NCBI GenBank assembly: GCA_030065855.1
Contig: JASJCT010000009.1
Coordinates: 1 to 64,000, forward strand
DNA from: Myxococcota bacterium
GTDB taxonomy: Bacteria; Myxococcota_A; Polyangia; JAAYKL01
Direction of reading: 5' to 3'
Length of the DNA stretch: 64,000 bases
In this document: positions 25,818 through 33,141 of the stretch, piece by piece
Layout: each line of letters starts with the position of its first letter
Position numbering within the stretch: position 1 is the first letter of the stretch
Notes under the pieces: generated by a model
What the model was told of the DNA's origin: nothing
Databases searched by the model: none
Seen by the model: only the letters and a program-made list of their open reading frames with translations
Position numbers and translations under genes: made by a program

Positions 25818-25890
<73 letters not shown>

Positions 25891-25957
25891 CAGCTGGCGA
25901 AACAGTGAGGCGCACTGGGCACGCGCCATCGCCGGGCTAACGCGAGGACACATACAT

Positions 25958-26030
25958 GTCCCCATCGTCTAGAGGCCTAGGACACCGGCCTTTCACGCCG
26001 GAGACACGGGTTCGACTCCCGTTGGGGACG
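25958..26030 (+). tRNA. tRNA-Glu (TTC)
   Basis: 73 nt. Acceptor stem GTCCCCA/TGGGGAC, anticodon arm CCGGCCTTTCACGCCGG with anticodon TTC, T-arm CGGGTTCGACTCCCG; CCA not encoded. Its 3' end is the insertion point of the island that follows: a near copy of the last 20 bases, plus the following C, recurs at 30720-30740. Confidence 0.97.
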
Positions 26031-26031
26031 C
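26011..26031 (+). repeat. att-like direct repeat, left (in tRNA-Glu)
   Basis: The last 20 bases of tRNA-Glu plus the next base, starting TTCGACTCCCGTTG. It matches 30720-30740 except for one G/A change. Typical of integration by a tyrosine recombinase that restores the tRNA 3' end. Confidence 0.75.
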
Positions 26032-26035
26032 AAGG

Positions 26036-26063
26036 AAACCCTGGCAGAAATGCTAGGGTTTTT
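26036..26063 (+). terminator. Rho-independent terminator after tRNA-Glu
   Basis: AAACCCTGGCA and TGCTAGGGTTT form an 11-bp stem (one G-U) around a GAAA tetraloop, followed by Ts. A similar terminator follows the duplicated tRNA end at 30745-30774. Confidence 0.85.
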
Positions 26064-26275
26064 GTACGTTTAGGGAACTTTTCTCCGTTCCTCCATTCCT
26101 TGACTTTCCGAATGTGCCCCTGGACGGTTCGTCCAGGGCGGCCACGGCCTCAGTTTTCACACCCGGGGCCAGGTGTGAATATCGCATCGTCATTTGGATC
26201 GTGGAGTGGCCGAGAAGCTCCTGGACCTCCTTCAGAGAACGGTCCCTCATCACCAGGTGCGAAACGAAGTGGGGT
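26053..26275 (-). pseudogene. C-terminal remnant of tyrosine recombinase (integrase)
   Basis: The minus strand encodes HFVSHLVMRD, then SLKEVQELLGHSTIQMTMRY and SHLAP. This is the C-terminal catalytic end of phage-type integrases, with the box-II HxxxxH-like segment, the LGH motif and the tyrosine nucleophile in RYSHL. A stop codon (TGA) cuts the frame directly upstream of HFVSHL, so the N-terminal and core regions are missing. Its end points toward the tRNA-Glu gene 23 bp away. It is the decayed integrase of the island. Confidence 0.8.
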
Positions 26276-26286
26276 CATCAGATGAT

Positions 26287-26798
26287 GTGTCCCTGATCAT
26301 CTCTTTCTATAAGGGAGGCAACTTCCGAACCGTCAAATCAGTGCTGAGTGCGGTGTCAAACTTGGACATCGAGAAGGCAGAGACCTCCTCATCCGCGCCC
26401 TGGACGATCCTCGCATTGGTGTCTGTAAGCCAGCCTTCCGGATTCTTGATGACACTGGGGTGTGGTTGATCTGGCACCCAGTGGCGAATCTAATCGAGAA
26501 GGGGAGACACCCCCACACGATTCTGTTCGCCCTTCGGCTTGTGACGAAAAAACATGAATGGAAGATACTGCCGATCATCCTCCGCGCCCATCTCCACCCT
26601 GATGAGGCAGTCGTCGAATTGGCATCGGAGCGACTTACTCAAGGGGTTCCTGAGTATCGACACGGCAGTTACGCAATGCCGGAGCCAACAGAAGAGGAGT
26701 ATCAATGCGCTCAACTCGTTTTTGCCGAGTCGCGGAGCCAGCTGGATGAGCAGTACGAGTCCTCAATCTCGACGATCCTAAAAAACCTAGTAAGATAG
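26287..26798 (+). pseudogene. Frameshifted HEAT-like alpha-helical repeat gene
   Basis: Two overlapping frames read as one protein if a single base is missing near 26380. The first gives SLIISFYKGGNFRTVKSVLS and AVSNLDIEKAE; the second continues DLLIRALDDPRIGVCKPAFR, then WLIWHPVANLIEKG and ILPIILRAHLHPDEAVVELA. The helix-turn-helix rhythm of about 35-40 residues resembles HEAT/ARM repeats. The start is uncertain (GTG at 26287 is one choice). The stop is 7 bp before the reverse transcriptase gene, so the two probably form one operon. Either a decayed gene or a one-base sequencing error. No known family recognised. Confidence 0.55.
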
Positions 26799-26805
26799 GA
26801 ACACC

Positions 26806-28749
26806 ATGTCTGCCAAGAGGAAAATATCACTTTGGGATCAGCTTCTCAGGCCGAAATGCCTGAAGCGTGGGTGGCATATCGCACGATCGGAGTTGCACCA
26901 GGATTTCGCTGAAGACCTCTATTGTGCTGATGTTATCGCTGTAGACTTGGAGGGGGTTGTTAAAGAGACTATCAACAGACTTGAAACCTGGACATATTGT
27001 CCTCGACCATTGTTGCATATCGAAGTCCCAAAGGGGTCATTAGGCTTCCGCCCGGGAACAGTAGTCTCGATACATGATCGAATGATCCTCTCAGCAGTCG
27101 TGTTCCTAATGGCAAAGAGGATTGATCCCAAGTTGCCAGAGGCAGTTTTCAGTTGGCGTCTAAAGGAGCCCCTACCCAAAAAAGGGCCAATTTTCAAAGA
27201 AACAACCATTGTCGATTTTCCATATCTAAAAAAGAAGACGATTAGCCAGAGAATCGACCCTTTCGAGGCTTGGTATACAGCGTGGCCTGAATTCGATGAA
27301 AAATCGAGAGAAGCATTTGGTGAAGACGGATTTCGTTACCTTGTGACTTCAGATATCGCGGCCTACTTCGAAAACATTCAACTTCAGATTCTTAGAGACC
27401 AACTTCAAAAACACTTACCTGATGAACAACGCATAATTAACCTTTTGTTTTCATTTCTTGAATCATGGGCGATTCGTACTGATGAAGAGCGGCCCTATCT
27501 GCGAGGGATCCCACAGGGGACCTCAATCTCGAGTTTTCTAGGGAACGTGTTTTTACTGCCAGTCGATGAAGTATTTGAAAAATTGTCCCGTAAACACGAG
27601 ATCAAGTACTTTAGGTATATGGATGATGTGCGAGTGTTCGTAAAGGATATCACCACTGCACGGCTCGTAGTCTTTGAGATGATAAGAGTTCTAAGATCGC
27701 TACATCTAAACGTTCAAACTGCGAAAACGAAAGTCCTTGATCAGAAAAAGAACCAAGAGATTTCAAGAGAACTGTTGGACTCGCGTGTGGATGAGCTGTC
27801 AAAGATTCTCGAAGAAATCAAAGACAAATTCGCCGAGAGTCCCGTTCCGATTGCACAGAGAAAGAAATACCTTGAACGATTAAAGAATATTGCAAAGGCA
27901 AGGCCCAATGACAGGCAGCCTATTACTGGCTCTCATCGTCCTCTCTCTGGATTGTCGATGAGAGCCTTCATGAGATGGGTGTCCTGCCACATACGTCTGG
28001 GAAGCCGCGAACACATACAAAGACTGCTTAGAGAGATTGAGACCAACCCTGATCACCGCCTGACCAGAAAGGCAATACGTTGTAGCAGAGAGTTTCCCTC
28101 ACTGAATTCGATACAAACACATTTGATGAAATTCATTAAGTCTGAAGACTGCATATTTCCCCACCAAAGAGCTGAATGCCTTCGAGCGATACGGTACTTG
28201 CGTCGAATCGACAGGGACACAGCGAAGTACTGTCGGGAGGTTCTTTATAATGAGAAGAACGATCCATATGAACGAGTCGAAGCAGCATATCTTCTCGCGA
28301 GAACAGAACTTGACAAGAAATCAATCAAGAAATGTATGGATCTCTTAGAAGGGGAGCGAAGCCCTTATGTCCAGGTTGCATTGGCGGGGCTTGTAGTCCA
28401 GCGTAGACAAAACAACGATGAAATCGTCAGAACGCTCGTCTTTCACCCGAACGCGAATGTAAGGGAAATTGGGGGGCTGTTCCGTCAACTCAAGACAGAT
28501 CCACAACTTGCCGAAGATCGATTGAAGCACGTTTTCCGGGAAGATCGAGACTGGATAGTTTGTGACAACATGCCATTCATTCACCTGATGTCAGTTTCCA
28601 ACAATCCCAAAGTACTTGAAGTTCTGGTTTCCTACATCAAGAAGCCGTCAAAGACACTGAAGATCGTTGACATCAGAGAAATGCTTAAAAGAATCCTTGG
28701 GAGAGTCAGTGAGGAATTGAAGTCCAGAGAGTCTGAACGGACAGGTTGA
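26806..28749 (+). CDS. Reverse transcriptase with C-terminal alpha-helical repeats (Abi/UG-like)
   Basis: 647 residues. The palm domain has the RT motifs: Asp183 in SDIAAYFENI (motif A/RT3), GIPQGTSISSFLGNVFLLPV (RT4), FRYMDDVRVF with Asp273-Asp274 (RT5), and LNVQTAKTKVL (RT6). No maturase (X) or HNH domain of group II introns is visible and no retron msr-msd was seen, so it is not an ordinary intron or retron RT. From about residue 400 it is helical, with HEAT-like repeats (RVEAAYLLARTELDKKSIKK, VQVALAGLVVQRRQNNDEI). RT plus helical-repeat tail is the layout of abortive-infection and 'unknown group' RTs (AbiK, AbiA, Abi-P2, DRT), several of which are anti-phage. Assignment to a specific subgroup is not possible by eye. 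Ribosome site GATAGGA lies upstream. It is the core of the tRNA-Glu island. Confidence 0.85.
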   Translation: MSAKRKISLWDQLLRPKCLKRGWHIARSELHQDFAEDLYCADVIAVDLEGVVKETINRLETWTYCPRPLLHIEVPKGSLGFRPGTVVSIHDRMILSAVVFLMAKRIDPKLPEAVFSWRLKEPLPKKGPIFKETTIVDFPYLKKKTISQRIDPFEAWYTAWPEFDEKSREAFGEDGFRYLVTSDIAAYFENIQLQILRDQLQKHLPDEQRIINLLFSFLESWAIRTDEERPYLRGIPQGTSISSFLGNVFLLPVDEVFEKLSRKHEIKYFRYMDDVRVFVKDITTARLVVFEMIRVLRSLHLNVQTAKTKVLDQKKNQEISRELLDSRVDELSKILEEIKDKFAESPVPIAQRKKYLERLKNIAKARPNDRQPITGSHRPLSGLSMRAFMRWVSCHIRLGSREHIQRLLREIETNPDHRLTRKAIRCSREFPSLNSIQTHLMKFIKSEDCIFPHQRAECLRAIRYLRRIDRDTAKYCREVLYNEKNDPYERVEAAYLLARTELDKKSIKKCMDLLEGERSPYVQVALAGLVVQRRQNNDEIVRTLVFHPNANVREIGGLFRQLKTDPQLAEDRLKHVFREDRDWIVCDNMPFIHLMSVSNNPKVLEVLVSYIKKPSKTLKIVDIREMLKRILGRVSEELKSRESERTG

Positions 28750-28783
28750 GTTCTTATGCTCGGTTATATTGCATTGCGGAGTG

Positions 28784-29569
28784 CTAGAAGAGCTCAAGCG
28801 TCGTTTTAGGGGGCCAAAACGTGCCGAGAACCAACCATGTGTTGAATGGAAAACGAGTTCCCATGAAAAACCGCGTGTCCCTTTTTGGCGAGCCGATATC
28901 GGATAGGTACTTATCACGAACACTTTTCGCAGCACCCTCTTCGCCCTTACTATCTCTTTCCTTCAGGTAAAGTGCACCGAGTTCCCAATCCTCGATCATA
29001 CGGGAATACGGTTGTTCCCGGTCTTCGCACTGGAACACATAACTCCACTTGAATGGTAGTTTCTCCAACGGTTTTGTTGGTGGACCGAACAGTGACATTT
29101 GGTTGAGTGCAGCTTGCCATTCCGGCTTCCATTCTGGATCAGCCTTCTCGATTGTAACGTCCAGAATCTCCTTTGGACGAATAATACCTAGAGAGGACTT
29201 GTCGAGCTCGTGCTGCTCTTCCAATTGTTTATAGGTGTGGTGGGGCAGCCGATCGATAAACTGGCGTCTTTCACGCCATTCATCCTTGCATCCGATCGGA
29301 TCCCCAAGAACCCATAGTGTCGATAGGTCCGGTTTTCGGCTCTCTTTGCGATTGTCGTTGCCATGGCCCACCGGCTCCAGGTCTACTTCAATCCACTGAT
29401 ATTTGTGGATGCGTACGTCTTGGTATCGCAACGGGATTGGATAAAGTCGCACCCAGTCCCCCTGAACAGTGATTCCAGCCGTACAAATGAGTTCCTTGTA
29501 CTTAGTAGATGGATGCGGGTACGTGAGCACTGTGATCAGTATTTTGGTTTTTAACAATGTCGGATTCAT
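28784..29569 (-). CDS. Hypothetical protein, partner of DUF488 gene
   Basis: 261 residues, no signal peptide or membrane segment. The N-terminal pattern ILITVLTYPHPSTKYKELIC then TAGITVQGDWVRLYPIPLR is a conserved-looking beta-rich start that I have seen in uncharacterised bacterial proteins beside DUF488 genes (recollection, not checked). The rest contains RKPDLSTLWVLGD and a C-terminal beta strand. Its ATG overlaps the stop of the upstream DUF488 gene by 4 bp, so the two are translationally coupled and likely act together. It converges with the reverse transcriptase gene 34 bp away. Function unknown. Confidence 0.75.
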   Translation of the reverse strand: MNPTLLKTKILITVLTYPHPSTKYKELICTAGITVQGDWVRLYPIPLRYQDVRIHKYQWIEVDLEPVGHGNDNRKESRKPDLSTLWVLGDPIGCKDEWRERRQFIDRLPHHTYKQLEEQHELDKSSLGIIRPKEILDVTIEKADPEWKPEWQAALNQMSLFGPPTKPLEKLPFKWSYVFQCEDREQPYSRMIEDWELGALYLKERDSKGEEGAAKSVRDKYLSDIGSPKRDTRFFMGTRFPFNTWLVLGTFWPPKTTLELF

Positions 29570-30432
29570 GCTTGGGCGAGGTCTCTCACCAGCAAATCAG
29601 TCATTGCGGAGAGTCGTTTCCCCAGATGTGTGCGATGACAGAACGCCGGATCAGCTTCACTGCAAACTAAAACGGAAGGATACCTCTCTATAATTGCAGC
29701 CACTTCCTCAACAGCATCGTTTTCTTGTTTTAGAACGGTTCGTTCATATTCCTCGAATAGCCTTTGATAAGCGGATGGATTGGTAAGATTCTGCCGTTTC
29801 TCAGACCGAATACCAAGCTCCGGGAAATGATGATATCGTATGCCCAGCTTCTCACACAGTCTGTTCAGGGTCTTCTTGTGAAAACCATATCGTCGAGCGA
29901 TAGGGTTCTTACGGACATCTACCAGGCACGATATGCCGTTCTGAACTAGTCGATTCAGGAAAGCGTCTATGGAGAGTCCCTCATACCCCGCGGTGTAGAC
30001 AAGAAGTTCGGCGTTAGGCCGTTCCTCCAAACTGCGAATCTCACTCAGAATGGTGTACCAGGGGTGCCGATTGTAGATGTCGTCAATCATTGCTCGCTCC
30101 GACATCTCTCCGTACCGCTTGGCTATGATGTGAATATCCTTACGAATTTCAAACGGTAGGGTTCCAATATTTGAAATCCCCTTGCTGGTTATGCTCAAAT
30201 GGTCCTTGTCATCCTCGTTCAGTAGACCTGCAACACACAGTTTGCCCATCTCTTGATACAAGGAAAATGAGAATGGACCATATTTGTAAGGCACAAAGTT
30301 ATAGAACGTTGCTCCCCCACCACTTTCACTGTCTTTGGACAGCGCAAATGCCCATTTTGTAAGTTGAAAACGGGAGAGTTGCCCCCCTGCAACTTTGAAC
30401 ATATGGAGAATTGTCCTCTGACGCACCAACAT
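29566..30432 (-). CDS. DUF488 protein with N-terminal winged-helix/Panacea-like domain
   Basis: 288 residues in two parts. The N-terminal 130 residues (LSRFQLTKWAFALSKDSE, YNFVPYKYGPFSFSLYQEMG) resemble the DUF4065/Panacea or SocA-like fold found in antitoxins, or a winged helix. The C-terminal DUF488 domain has VYTAGYEGLSIDAFLNRLV, CLVDVRKNPIARRYGFHKK, YHHFPELGI and the closing motif CSEADPAFCHR with paired Cys and His, all hallmarks of the family. DUF488 proteins have been linked to stress and nucleic-acid processes but have no settled biochemistry. It is the first gene of a coupled pair on the island. An AGGA-type ribosome site was not obvious. Confidence 0.8.
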   Translation of the reverse strand: MLVRQRTILHMFKVAGGQLSRFQLTKWAFALSKDSESGGGATFYNFVPYKYGPFSFSLYQEMGKLCVAGLLNEDDKDHLSITSKGISNIGTLPFEIRKDIHIIAKRYGEMSERAMIDDIYNRHPWYTILSEIRSLEERPNAELLVYTAGYEGLSIDAFLNRLVQNGISCLVDVRKNPIARRYGFHKKTLNRLCEKLGIRYHHFPELGIRSEKRQNLTNPSAYQRLFEEYERTVLKQENDAVEEVAAIIERYPSVLVCSEADPAFCHRTHLGKRLSAMTDLLVRDLAQA

Positions 30433-30719
30433 TCTTCTTTATATACAGAGAAAGACCATAAGGGGCAATTTGTTCGCAGGGCCTCGGAGTCGTGAAATGA
30501 CAGTCGTGAAATGACAGAATGCCTGTGGACTAAAACCGGTCGAAAATTCACAATGGGCTTGTGCCCCCATTGTGCCACTGGTTCGTAACCTGAGTCGGAT
30601 TCTGTCGGATTCATTTGGTTCGAAACGGAGCGAAACGGATAATCGATTGTTCAATTGAATCGGGTGATTTGGGGTCAAGCTCTCGTATTCGCTTGTTTTT
30701 TTCGATTCCTATAATCTGA
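30433..30719. promoter_or_regulatory. Upstream region of DUF488 pair with short tandem duplications
   Basis: No gene. It holds a perfect tandem duplication of TCGTGAAATGACAG (30490-30503 and 30504-30517), a hairpin CACAATGGG/CCCATTGTG (30549-30557 and 30566-30574), a doubled GTCGGATTC near 30596-30614, and doubled CGAAACGGA near 30621-30639. A promoter and operator for the DUF488 operon are likely within it. The segment ends at the right att-like repeat. Confidence 0.45.
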
Positions 30720-30740
30720 TTCGACTCCCGTTGAGGACGC
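30720..30740 (+). repeat. att-like direct repeat, right
   Basis: Near-identical copy of the tRNA-Glu 3' end at 26011-26031, one mismatch. It is followed by its own terminator and by sequence similar to that after the tRNA (GTTTAGGAAATCTTTTCC against GTTTAGGGAACTTTTCTCC), probably the original downstream sequence of the tRNA before insertion. Confidence 0.75.
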
Positions 30741-30744
30741 TGCG

Positions 30745-30774
30745 AAACCCCGAGGATTTCCTTGGGGTTTTTTT
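30745..30774 (+). terminator. Terminator following duplicated tRNA end
   Basis: AAACCCCGAGG and CCTTGGGGTTT form a stem with a G-U pair and a short T-rich loop, followed by TTTT. It is the counterpart of the terminator behind the intact tRNA-Glu. Confidence 0.75.
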
Positions 30775-30826
30775 GTGTTTAGGAAATCTTTTCCGCTTCT
30801 CGTACTTGGGGGCTATGGCTCGGCGG

Positions 30827-32381: not shown

Positions 32382-32777
32382 TTAAAACCGTAAACCGTGA
32401 GAAGAGAAATGCCTATCAAAAGCAAACGCCCGGTCGATCCGCTGCGCATTCATCTGTGCAAAGCTGACCGCATCGACCAAAGATAAGCGTCGCTTGGATT
32501 GGTCAGCCAAGAGGTCAAGCCCAGCTTCGTGCATCTCTTCGTCGACCCAGGTTACATTGAGCAACGGGGCAAAATTATTTCTAAAGCGACGTACCGCACT
32601 AGCGCCGAACCGTCTACCGAGCAGGGCGTAGGTTTCCACTAATACGTATGAGTTGGTGACGAGCTCGGCTTTCTCAAGCCGAAGTGCATCGAATTTGTGC
32701 ACGGCATCATCGTGGTTCTCGTCGTTGGCCACCAGAAGTGCAAGTATTGCCGAGGTATCTACAAACACCCGGCTCAT
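32382..32777 (-). CDS. vapC: PIN-domain ribonuclease toxin (VapC-like)
   Basis: 131-residue PIN-domain RNase. The acidic residues for Mg2+ are present: Asp7 (VDTSAIL), Glu48 (VLVETYALL), Asp102 (SLVDAVSF) and Asp121 (FAFDRHF). Its ATG overlaps the stop of the upstream antitoxin gene by 4 bp, the usual VapBC layout with antitoxin first. The RNA target cannot be predicted. Confidence 0.88.
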   Translation of the reverse strand: MSRVFVDTSAILALLVANDENHDDAVHKFDALRLEKAELVTNSYVLVETYALLGRRFGASAVRRFRNNFAPLLNVTWVDEEMHEAGLDLLADQSKRRLSLVDAVSFAQMNAQRIDRAFAFDRHFSSHGLRF

Positions 32778-33025
32778 TCGAAAGCCGACTCGAGGTAGGT
32801 ATCGTGATCTGAAGAGAGATTGGTCGCGCCCATCTTTTCGCTGAGCGAACCGATCAGCTGAGCAGCCTGTTTATACTTGATGTCAATATCATTAGTTTCG
32901 TCATCCAGAAGCATGCGGTCAATACAGCGCCGCACTGCTTCGGCCAAAGATATCCCTTTGGCCTGGGCATAGCGCCGAAGTACCCGTTCTTGTTGGGGGC
33001 GCAACTGAATCTGTGTTCGTATCAT
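32774..33025 (-). CDS. Ribbon-helix-helix antitoxin
   Basis: 83 residues from the ATG at 33025, which has AGAGG upstream; a longer frame from 33073 would cross the operator. The N-terminus RTQIQLRPQQERVLRRYAQA, GISLAEAVRRCIDRML is a ribbon-helix-helix DNA-binding fold; the C-terminal part would bind the PIN toxin. It is coupled to vapC. A perfect palindrome at 33054-33065 is a likely operator for autoregulation. Confidence 0.85.
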   Translation of the reverse strand: MIRTQIQLRPQQERVLRRYAQAKGISLAEAVRRCIDRMLLDDETNDIDIKYKQAAQLIGSLSEKMGATNLSSDHDTYLESAFE

Positions 33026-33053
33026 CTGAAAACCTCTGAAGATTAGTGTAAGC

Positions 33054-33065
33054 ACATCATGATGT
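33054..33065. promoter_or_regulatory. Palindromic operator upstream of antitoxin
   Basis: ACATCATGATGT, a perfect 12-bp palindrome 29 bp before the antitoxin start, with a further half-site-like ATGTCAATCAT beyond. It fits autoregulation by the ribbon-helix-helix antitoxin (inference). Confidence 0.5.
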
Positions 33066-33141
33066 AATGTCAATCATTTCTTAAGGTCTAATCATAAGCT
33101 GTCAGGGTGATATTTTAAATGTTCAATGGTATTGTCCAGGC

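Follow-up and report, generated by a model that had tools for sequence, protein, structure and literature searches.

A probable decayed integrative element at tRNA-Glu with two candidate defence modules in a Myxococcota bacterium

The 3' end of a tRNA-Glu gene occurs twice in a 64,000-nucleotide stretch of DNA from a Myxococcota bacterium (contig JASJCT010000009.1; the whole stretch is hereafter called the window), which raises the question of how the genes lying between the two copies came to be there and what they do. A preliminary description of the locus saw in them a compact 4.7-kb defence or satellite island at tRNA-Glu, with the C-terminus of a tyrosine recombinase next to the tRNA, and our analysis supports a compact island with defence-type cargo that a tyrosine integrase inserted there. 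The locus is, in our view, likely to be a tRNA-Glu integrative element that has decayed but retains two independent, apparently intact candidate defence modules. Its features are listed below, with the basis of the assignment in brackets.

25958..26031, plus strand: tRNA-Glu (TTC), reconstituted attachment site (ARAGORN; Rfam tRNA, 63.4 bits)
26011..26031, plus strand: attL core, left copy of the 21-bp direct repeat
26034..26063, plus strand: terminator 3' of the left copy; likeness to the right copy extends to 26083
26053..26268, minus strand: tyrosine integrase remnant, C-terminal ~70 codons, pointing at the tRNA (Pfam/PHROGs)
26286..26798, plus strand: relic of a HEAT-like gene, 5' end missing, frameshift near 26385 (codon-bias frame switch)
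26806..28749, plus strand: UG21 reverse transcriptase (RT), 647 aa, with a C-terminal helical-repeat domain (PADLOC RT_UG21, 2.1e-128; Pfam RVT_1; model)
28784..29569, minus strand: PDC-M19B, predicted tandem OB-fold protein, 261 aa (PADLOC PDC-M19B, 2.8e-75; model, Foldseek)
29566..30432, minus strand: PDC-M19A, N-terminal domain plus DUF488, 288 aa (PADLOC PDC-M19A, 6.3e-84; Pfam DUF488, 7.6e-27)
30720..30740, plus strand: attR core, right copy of the 21-bp direct repeat, one mismatch
30744..30771, plus strand: terminator 3' of the right copy

ARAGORN places tRNA-Lys at 25818-25891, followed by tRNA-Glu(TTC) at 25958-26031. The last 21 nucleotides of the latter, TTCGACTCCCGTTGGGGACGC (26011-26031), recur at 30720-30740 with a single mismatch, as had been noticed, and the pair is unique in the genome: there is no third site in the 64-kb window at up to 3 mismatches, where shuffles expect 0, and no further copy elsewhere in the 7.1-Mb genome when up to 2 are allowed. 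By local alignment, the repeat reaches 26011-26083 and 30720-30793 (74 bp in total), running through the terminator into TTTAGGGAA.CTTTTC. The likeness beyond the 21-mer outscores 500 of 500 dinucleotide shuffles, and the regions downstream of tRNA-Glu in relatives score lower against either end of the island. The similar terminators already described after each copy both fold, at -18.7 and -19.3 kcal/mol. G+C content is 0.44-0.49 between the repeat copies and 0.54-0.58 on both flanks. The simplest reading derives the attachment site of the element from the 3' end of a tRNA-Glu plus the terminator behind it and takes the right copy for the displaced original; the terminator at 30744..30771 would then probably be the one that once followed the host tRNA-Glu.

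The tyrosine-recombinase C-terminus reported next to the tRNA is real, but it is a remnant only. Its homology spans 26268 down to about 26107, and it is 57-71% identical to four intact integrases at tRNA sites (L093, L094, L096 and L097). The reading frame breaks off at an HTFASH motif, where it abuts the HEAT-like relic, and thus the element is no longer able to move itself. All integrase relatives in the host family whose surroundings were read lie directly at tRNA 3' ends and face the tRNA; the sites are tRNA-Glu (genome G005), tRNA-Ala, tRNA-Asp, tRNA-Met and tRNA-Ser, the tRNA-Ala relative being located on contig 82 of the window's own genome. In G005 (contig C100), the intact 496-aa frame of L093 ends about 12 bp past tRNA-Glu, and no second repeat copy closing the G005 element was found. 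A TIR-domain gene adjoins this integrase, and the contig stops before any cargo becomes visible. Overall, tRNA-Glu emerges as a site that integrases of this group have used more than once within the host family. As a separate observation, two paralogous integrases of another genome, G002 (L091 and L092, at tRNA-Asp and tRNA-Ser and at contig ends), both break off at one and the same codon, immediately ahead of HTFASH, where they run into an identical 99-bp repeat-like end. That end is present at several contig ends, and the remnant in the window breaks at the same motif. This 99-bp end is possibly an insertion sequence targeting integrase genes.

The 5' end of the HEAT-like relic abuts the integrase remnant. 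Codon bias follows one frame over 26286-26384 and another over 26388-26795, and such a switch within the relic points to a real, frameshifted coding sequence, which confirms the frameshifted HEAT-like gene of the preliminary description and adds to it the missing 5' end. The frameshift itself could be an assembly error, the genome being a multi-contig draft. No homologue of the relic was found among viral contigs, plasmids or 189 genomes of the phylum, and nothing was found to support its being the C-terminal part of a second RT. From the repeat, the drop in G+C and the related integrases at tRNA genes, we conclude that the island is probably a site-specific tRNA-Glu integrative element; it is now immobile, the integrase being truncated and the HEAT-like gene both truncated and frameshifted. 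There are no replication, packaging or capsid-hijacking genes between 26032 and 30719, so the term satellite, once suggested for the island, does not apply.

Eight genomes of the family carry the GcvP/GcvH/GcvT-TrkA-tRNA-Lys-tRNA-Glu order, whole or in part, without the island; in most of these loci, a terminator follows tRNA-Glu directly and unrelated genes come next. The region to the right of tRNA-Glu is not collinear, and a strict empty site joining both flanks was found in none of the family genomes. On the right flank, the SDR gene is absent from the family at E <= 1e-50 and no tRNA lies near its homologues, so it was rejected as the ancestral right neighbour, while TsaE is located on other contigs in relatives. 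A PIN-type gene with a small upstream gene occupies 32382-33073 of the window, 1.6 kb past the right repeat, and in genome G001 (L014, 7694-8167) the gene right after tRNA-Glu, oriented alike, is a PIN gene with 53% identity to it, which hints weakly at the ancestral order.

We infer the following history. The element's own copy of the tRNA-Glu 3' end would have recombined site-specifically with the tRNA-Glu of the chromosome, so that the left side kept an intact tRNA and the right side received the displaced 3' end with its terminator. A later deletion may then have joined the last ~70 integrase codons to a truncated, frameshifted HEAT-like gene, at the cost of mobility.

The RT with helical repeats seen at first inspection has an open frame, a YMDD motif and a predicted helical C-terminus. 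PADLOC assigns it to RT_UG21 with 427 bits, the next best profile being UG19 with 174, and the UG21 profile scores no more than 165 elsewhere. The RT itself turned up in this genome alone when 379 genomes of the phylum were searched (E <= 1e-40), and plasmids, phages and IMG/VR gave no UG21 match. A scan of a genome collection returned four clear homologues, all UG21 by profile: from a Halieaceae bacterium (L033, 54% identity), a gammaproteobacterium (L034, 53%), a member of Planctomycetota (L035, 38%) and one of Nitrospirales (L036, 34%); RYMDD, at residues 270-274, is invariant across the five sequences. In the Nitrospirales locus, the gene of a type IIG restriction enzyme ends 8 bp before the RT, and a gene for an HKD/Snf2-type helicase lies further upstream. 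In Planctomycetota, it comes after a relaxase-like gene, identified by reading rather than by a profile, and an Mrr-type endonuclease is encoded two genes downstream. Sites resembling attC, read as RYYYAAC...GTTRRRY, follow the RT in L033 and L034 and also precede it in L034; the site after the RT in L034 folds with a z of -4.0, the other two folded sites with -1.8 and -0.6. These sites suggest that UG21 RTs travel as integron cassettes, and together with the relaxase-like and restriction contexts they make UG21 appear mobile on its own. In the same two loci (L033, 7.9-10.5 kb; L034, 5.8-8.55 kb), a HEPN gene comes after UG21 in the former and an 8xMP membrane-protein gene before it in the latter.

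No functional study of UG21 was found in the literature consulted. Mestre et al. 2022 reportedly defined the UG classes. Class 1 is marked by a C-terminal alpha-helical repeat domain (PMC13174585), and template-independent synthesis has been reported for its members (PMC13174585; PMC13275509). In the model of our RT, residues 385-646 form a helical repeat with a pLDDT of about 90, the pTM of the whole model being 0.52. Foldseek matched this model to AbiA, DRT6, DRT4/UG15 and AbiK and also to DRT9, which belongs to class 2; TM-scores were low and group II intron RTs scored best, so the class of UG21 remains a lead. Judging from predicted architecture, UG21 most likely works like class 1 Abi/DRT enzymes, a placement to be taken as tentative. 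Upon infection, the RT and its helical-repeat domain would polymerise DNA without an RNA template, probably from a protein primer, and this synthesis would lead to abortive infection. In the window, the space beside the RT amounts to 7 bp on the upstream side and 34 bp on the downstream side; upstream, it is 8-15 bp in L035 and L036 but about 370 bp in L033. Rfam gave no ncRNA match in the island.

The coupled pair with a DUF488 protein also stands as first described: both genes lie on the minus strand and overlap by ATGA according to their ORF coordinates. Both products match PADLOC PDC-M19 over their whole length, and M19A keeps the D.R and C.E...CHR residues common to its relatives. The M19B model (pLDDT 80, pTM 0.81) retrieved tandem OB-fold proteins, RPA, Teb1 and telomere-end-binding proteins, all weakly (TM about 0.3), which suggests a tandem OB fold for the hitherto unknown half of PDC-M19. 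M19A and M19B are neighbours in each of the ten viral loci and each of the eleven same-class relatives examined. M19B occurs patchily: of 241 genomes of the class, 16 carry it, and it is also present on 22 plasmids. In three phage contigs (L051, L052 and L053), the pair sits between gpA-type terminase and portal genes, as phage-carried cargo. No functional data or mechanism for PDC-M19 were found in the literature consulted. We read the genes as a translationally coupled pair in which M19B, with its predicted OB folds, probably binds nucleic acid and M19A is probably the effector or its regulator; that a sensor of nucleic acid works here with a DUF488 effector is a tentative view of ours.

Could the RT and the M19 pair form one system, in which DNA made by UG21 during infection is sensed by M19B and cell death or arrest is brought about by the DUF488 protein? 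The modules share a small island and point at each other across a 34-bp gap, and M19B resembles OB proteins that bind single-stranded DNA. However, they lie on opposite strands with no common operon, M19 is absent near the four UG21 homologues, and the DNA examined around M19 in the 10 viral loci and 11 relatives shows no UG21 or other RT. We therefore see no support for a new combined RT system and regard a joint system as highly improbable. The RT is a catalogued UG21 and the pair a separately catalogued PDC-M19, not found together elsewhere, against the earlier suggestion of a possibly new RT-based system; PADLOC and structure searches matched both. The two modules are thus independent and the island is a new example, not a new system.

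A genuine island might also carry cargo unrelated to defence, serving host regulation or element maintenance, as a toxin-antitoxin-like M19 would. Along with the lack of functional tests in the literature consulted, the weak similarity of M19A to DarG (an antitoxin) and to type I specificity segments would fit this, as would the placement of M19 in phages, which it must then serve too. Nevertheless, restriction and defence-type genes neighbour UG21, and those UG/Abi RTs that have been studied act against viruses (PMC13174585, PMC12632851), so we find cargo of this kind unlikely. Integration itself could be disputed, the second repeat copy being a tRNA-Glu pseudogene made by local duplication and the genes ordinary residents. 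The likeness between the two ends does continue 50 bp past the tRNA, and the family genomes yielded no empty site. Yet an integrase remnant adjoins the tRNA, an intact integrase occupies the same site in G005, the RT is absent from the relatives searched and composition steps at the borders; a local duplication seems very unlikely to us. We therefore retain the reading of a decayed integrative element with two separate candidate defence modules.

Among known systems, tRNA-targeted tyrosine-integrase islands, in which the integrase faces the tRNA, are represented by L093 of G005 at tRNA-Glu. It shares with ours the tRNA, the integrase group, the orientation and a defence-like (TIR-domain) neighbour, whereas in the window only the C-terminus of the integrase is left and the element cannot move. 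Relative to PDC-M19, a PADLOC phage-defence candidate, the pair has both components at full length, adjacent and overlapping, although the known system is itself only a candidate. The RT agrees with catalogued UG21 (PADLOC RT_UG21, UG/Abi family) in its 427-bit match, full RT motifs and C-terminal helical region, and differs from the homologues found by standing at 34-54% identity. With AbiK, AbiA, DRT4/UG15 and DRT6 of class 1, it shares an RT followed by a predicted alpha-helical repeat domain, but it belongs to another sequence group and group II intron RTs give its best structure scores; the window, unlike the L033 locus, leaves little room for a flanking ncRNA. Because the UG21 RT of the window has an open frame, a near-minimal genetic context, a predicted class 1 architecture and homologues in four further lineages, this uncharacterised DRT group becomes directly testable.
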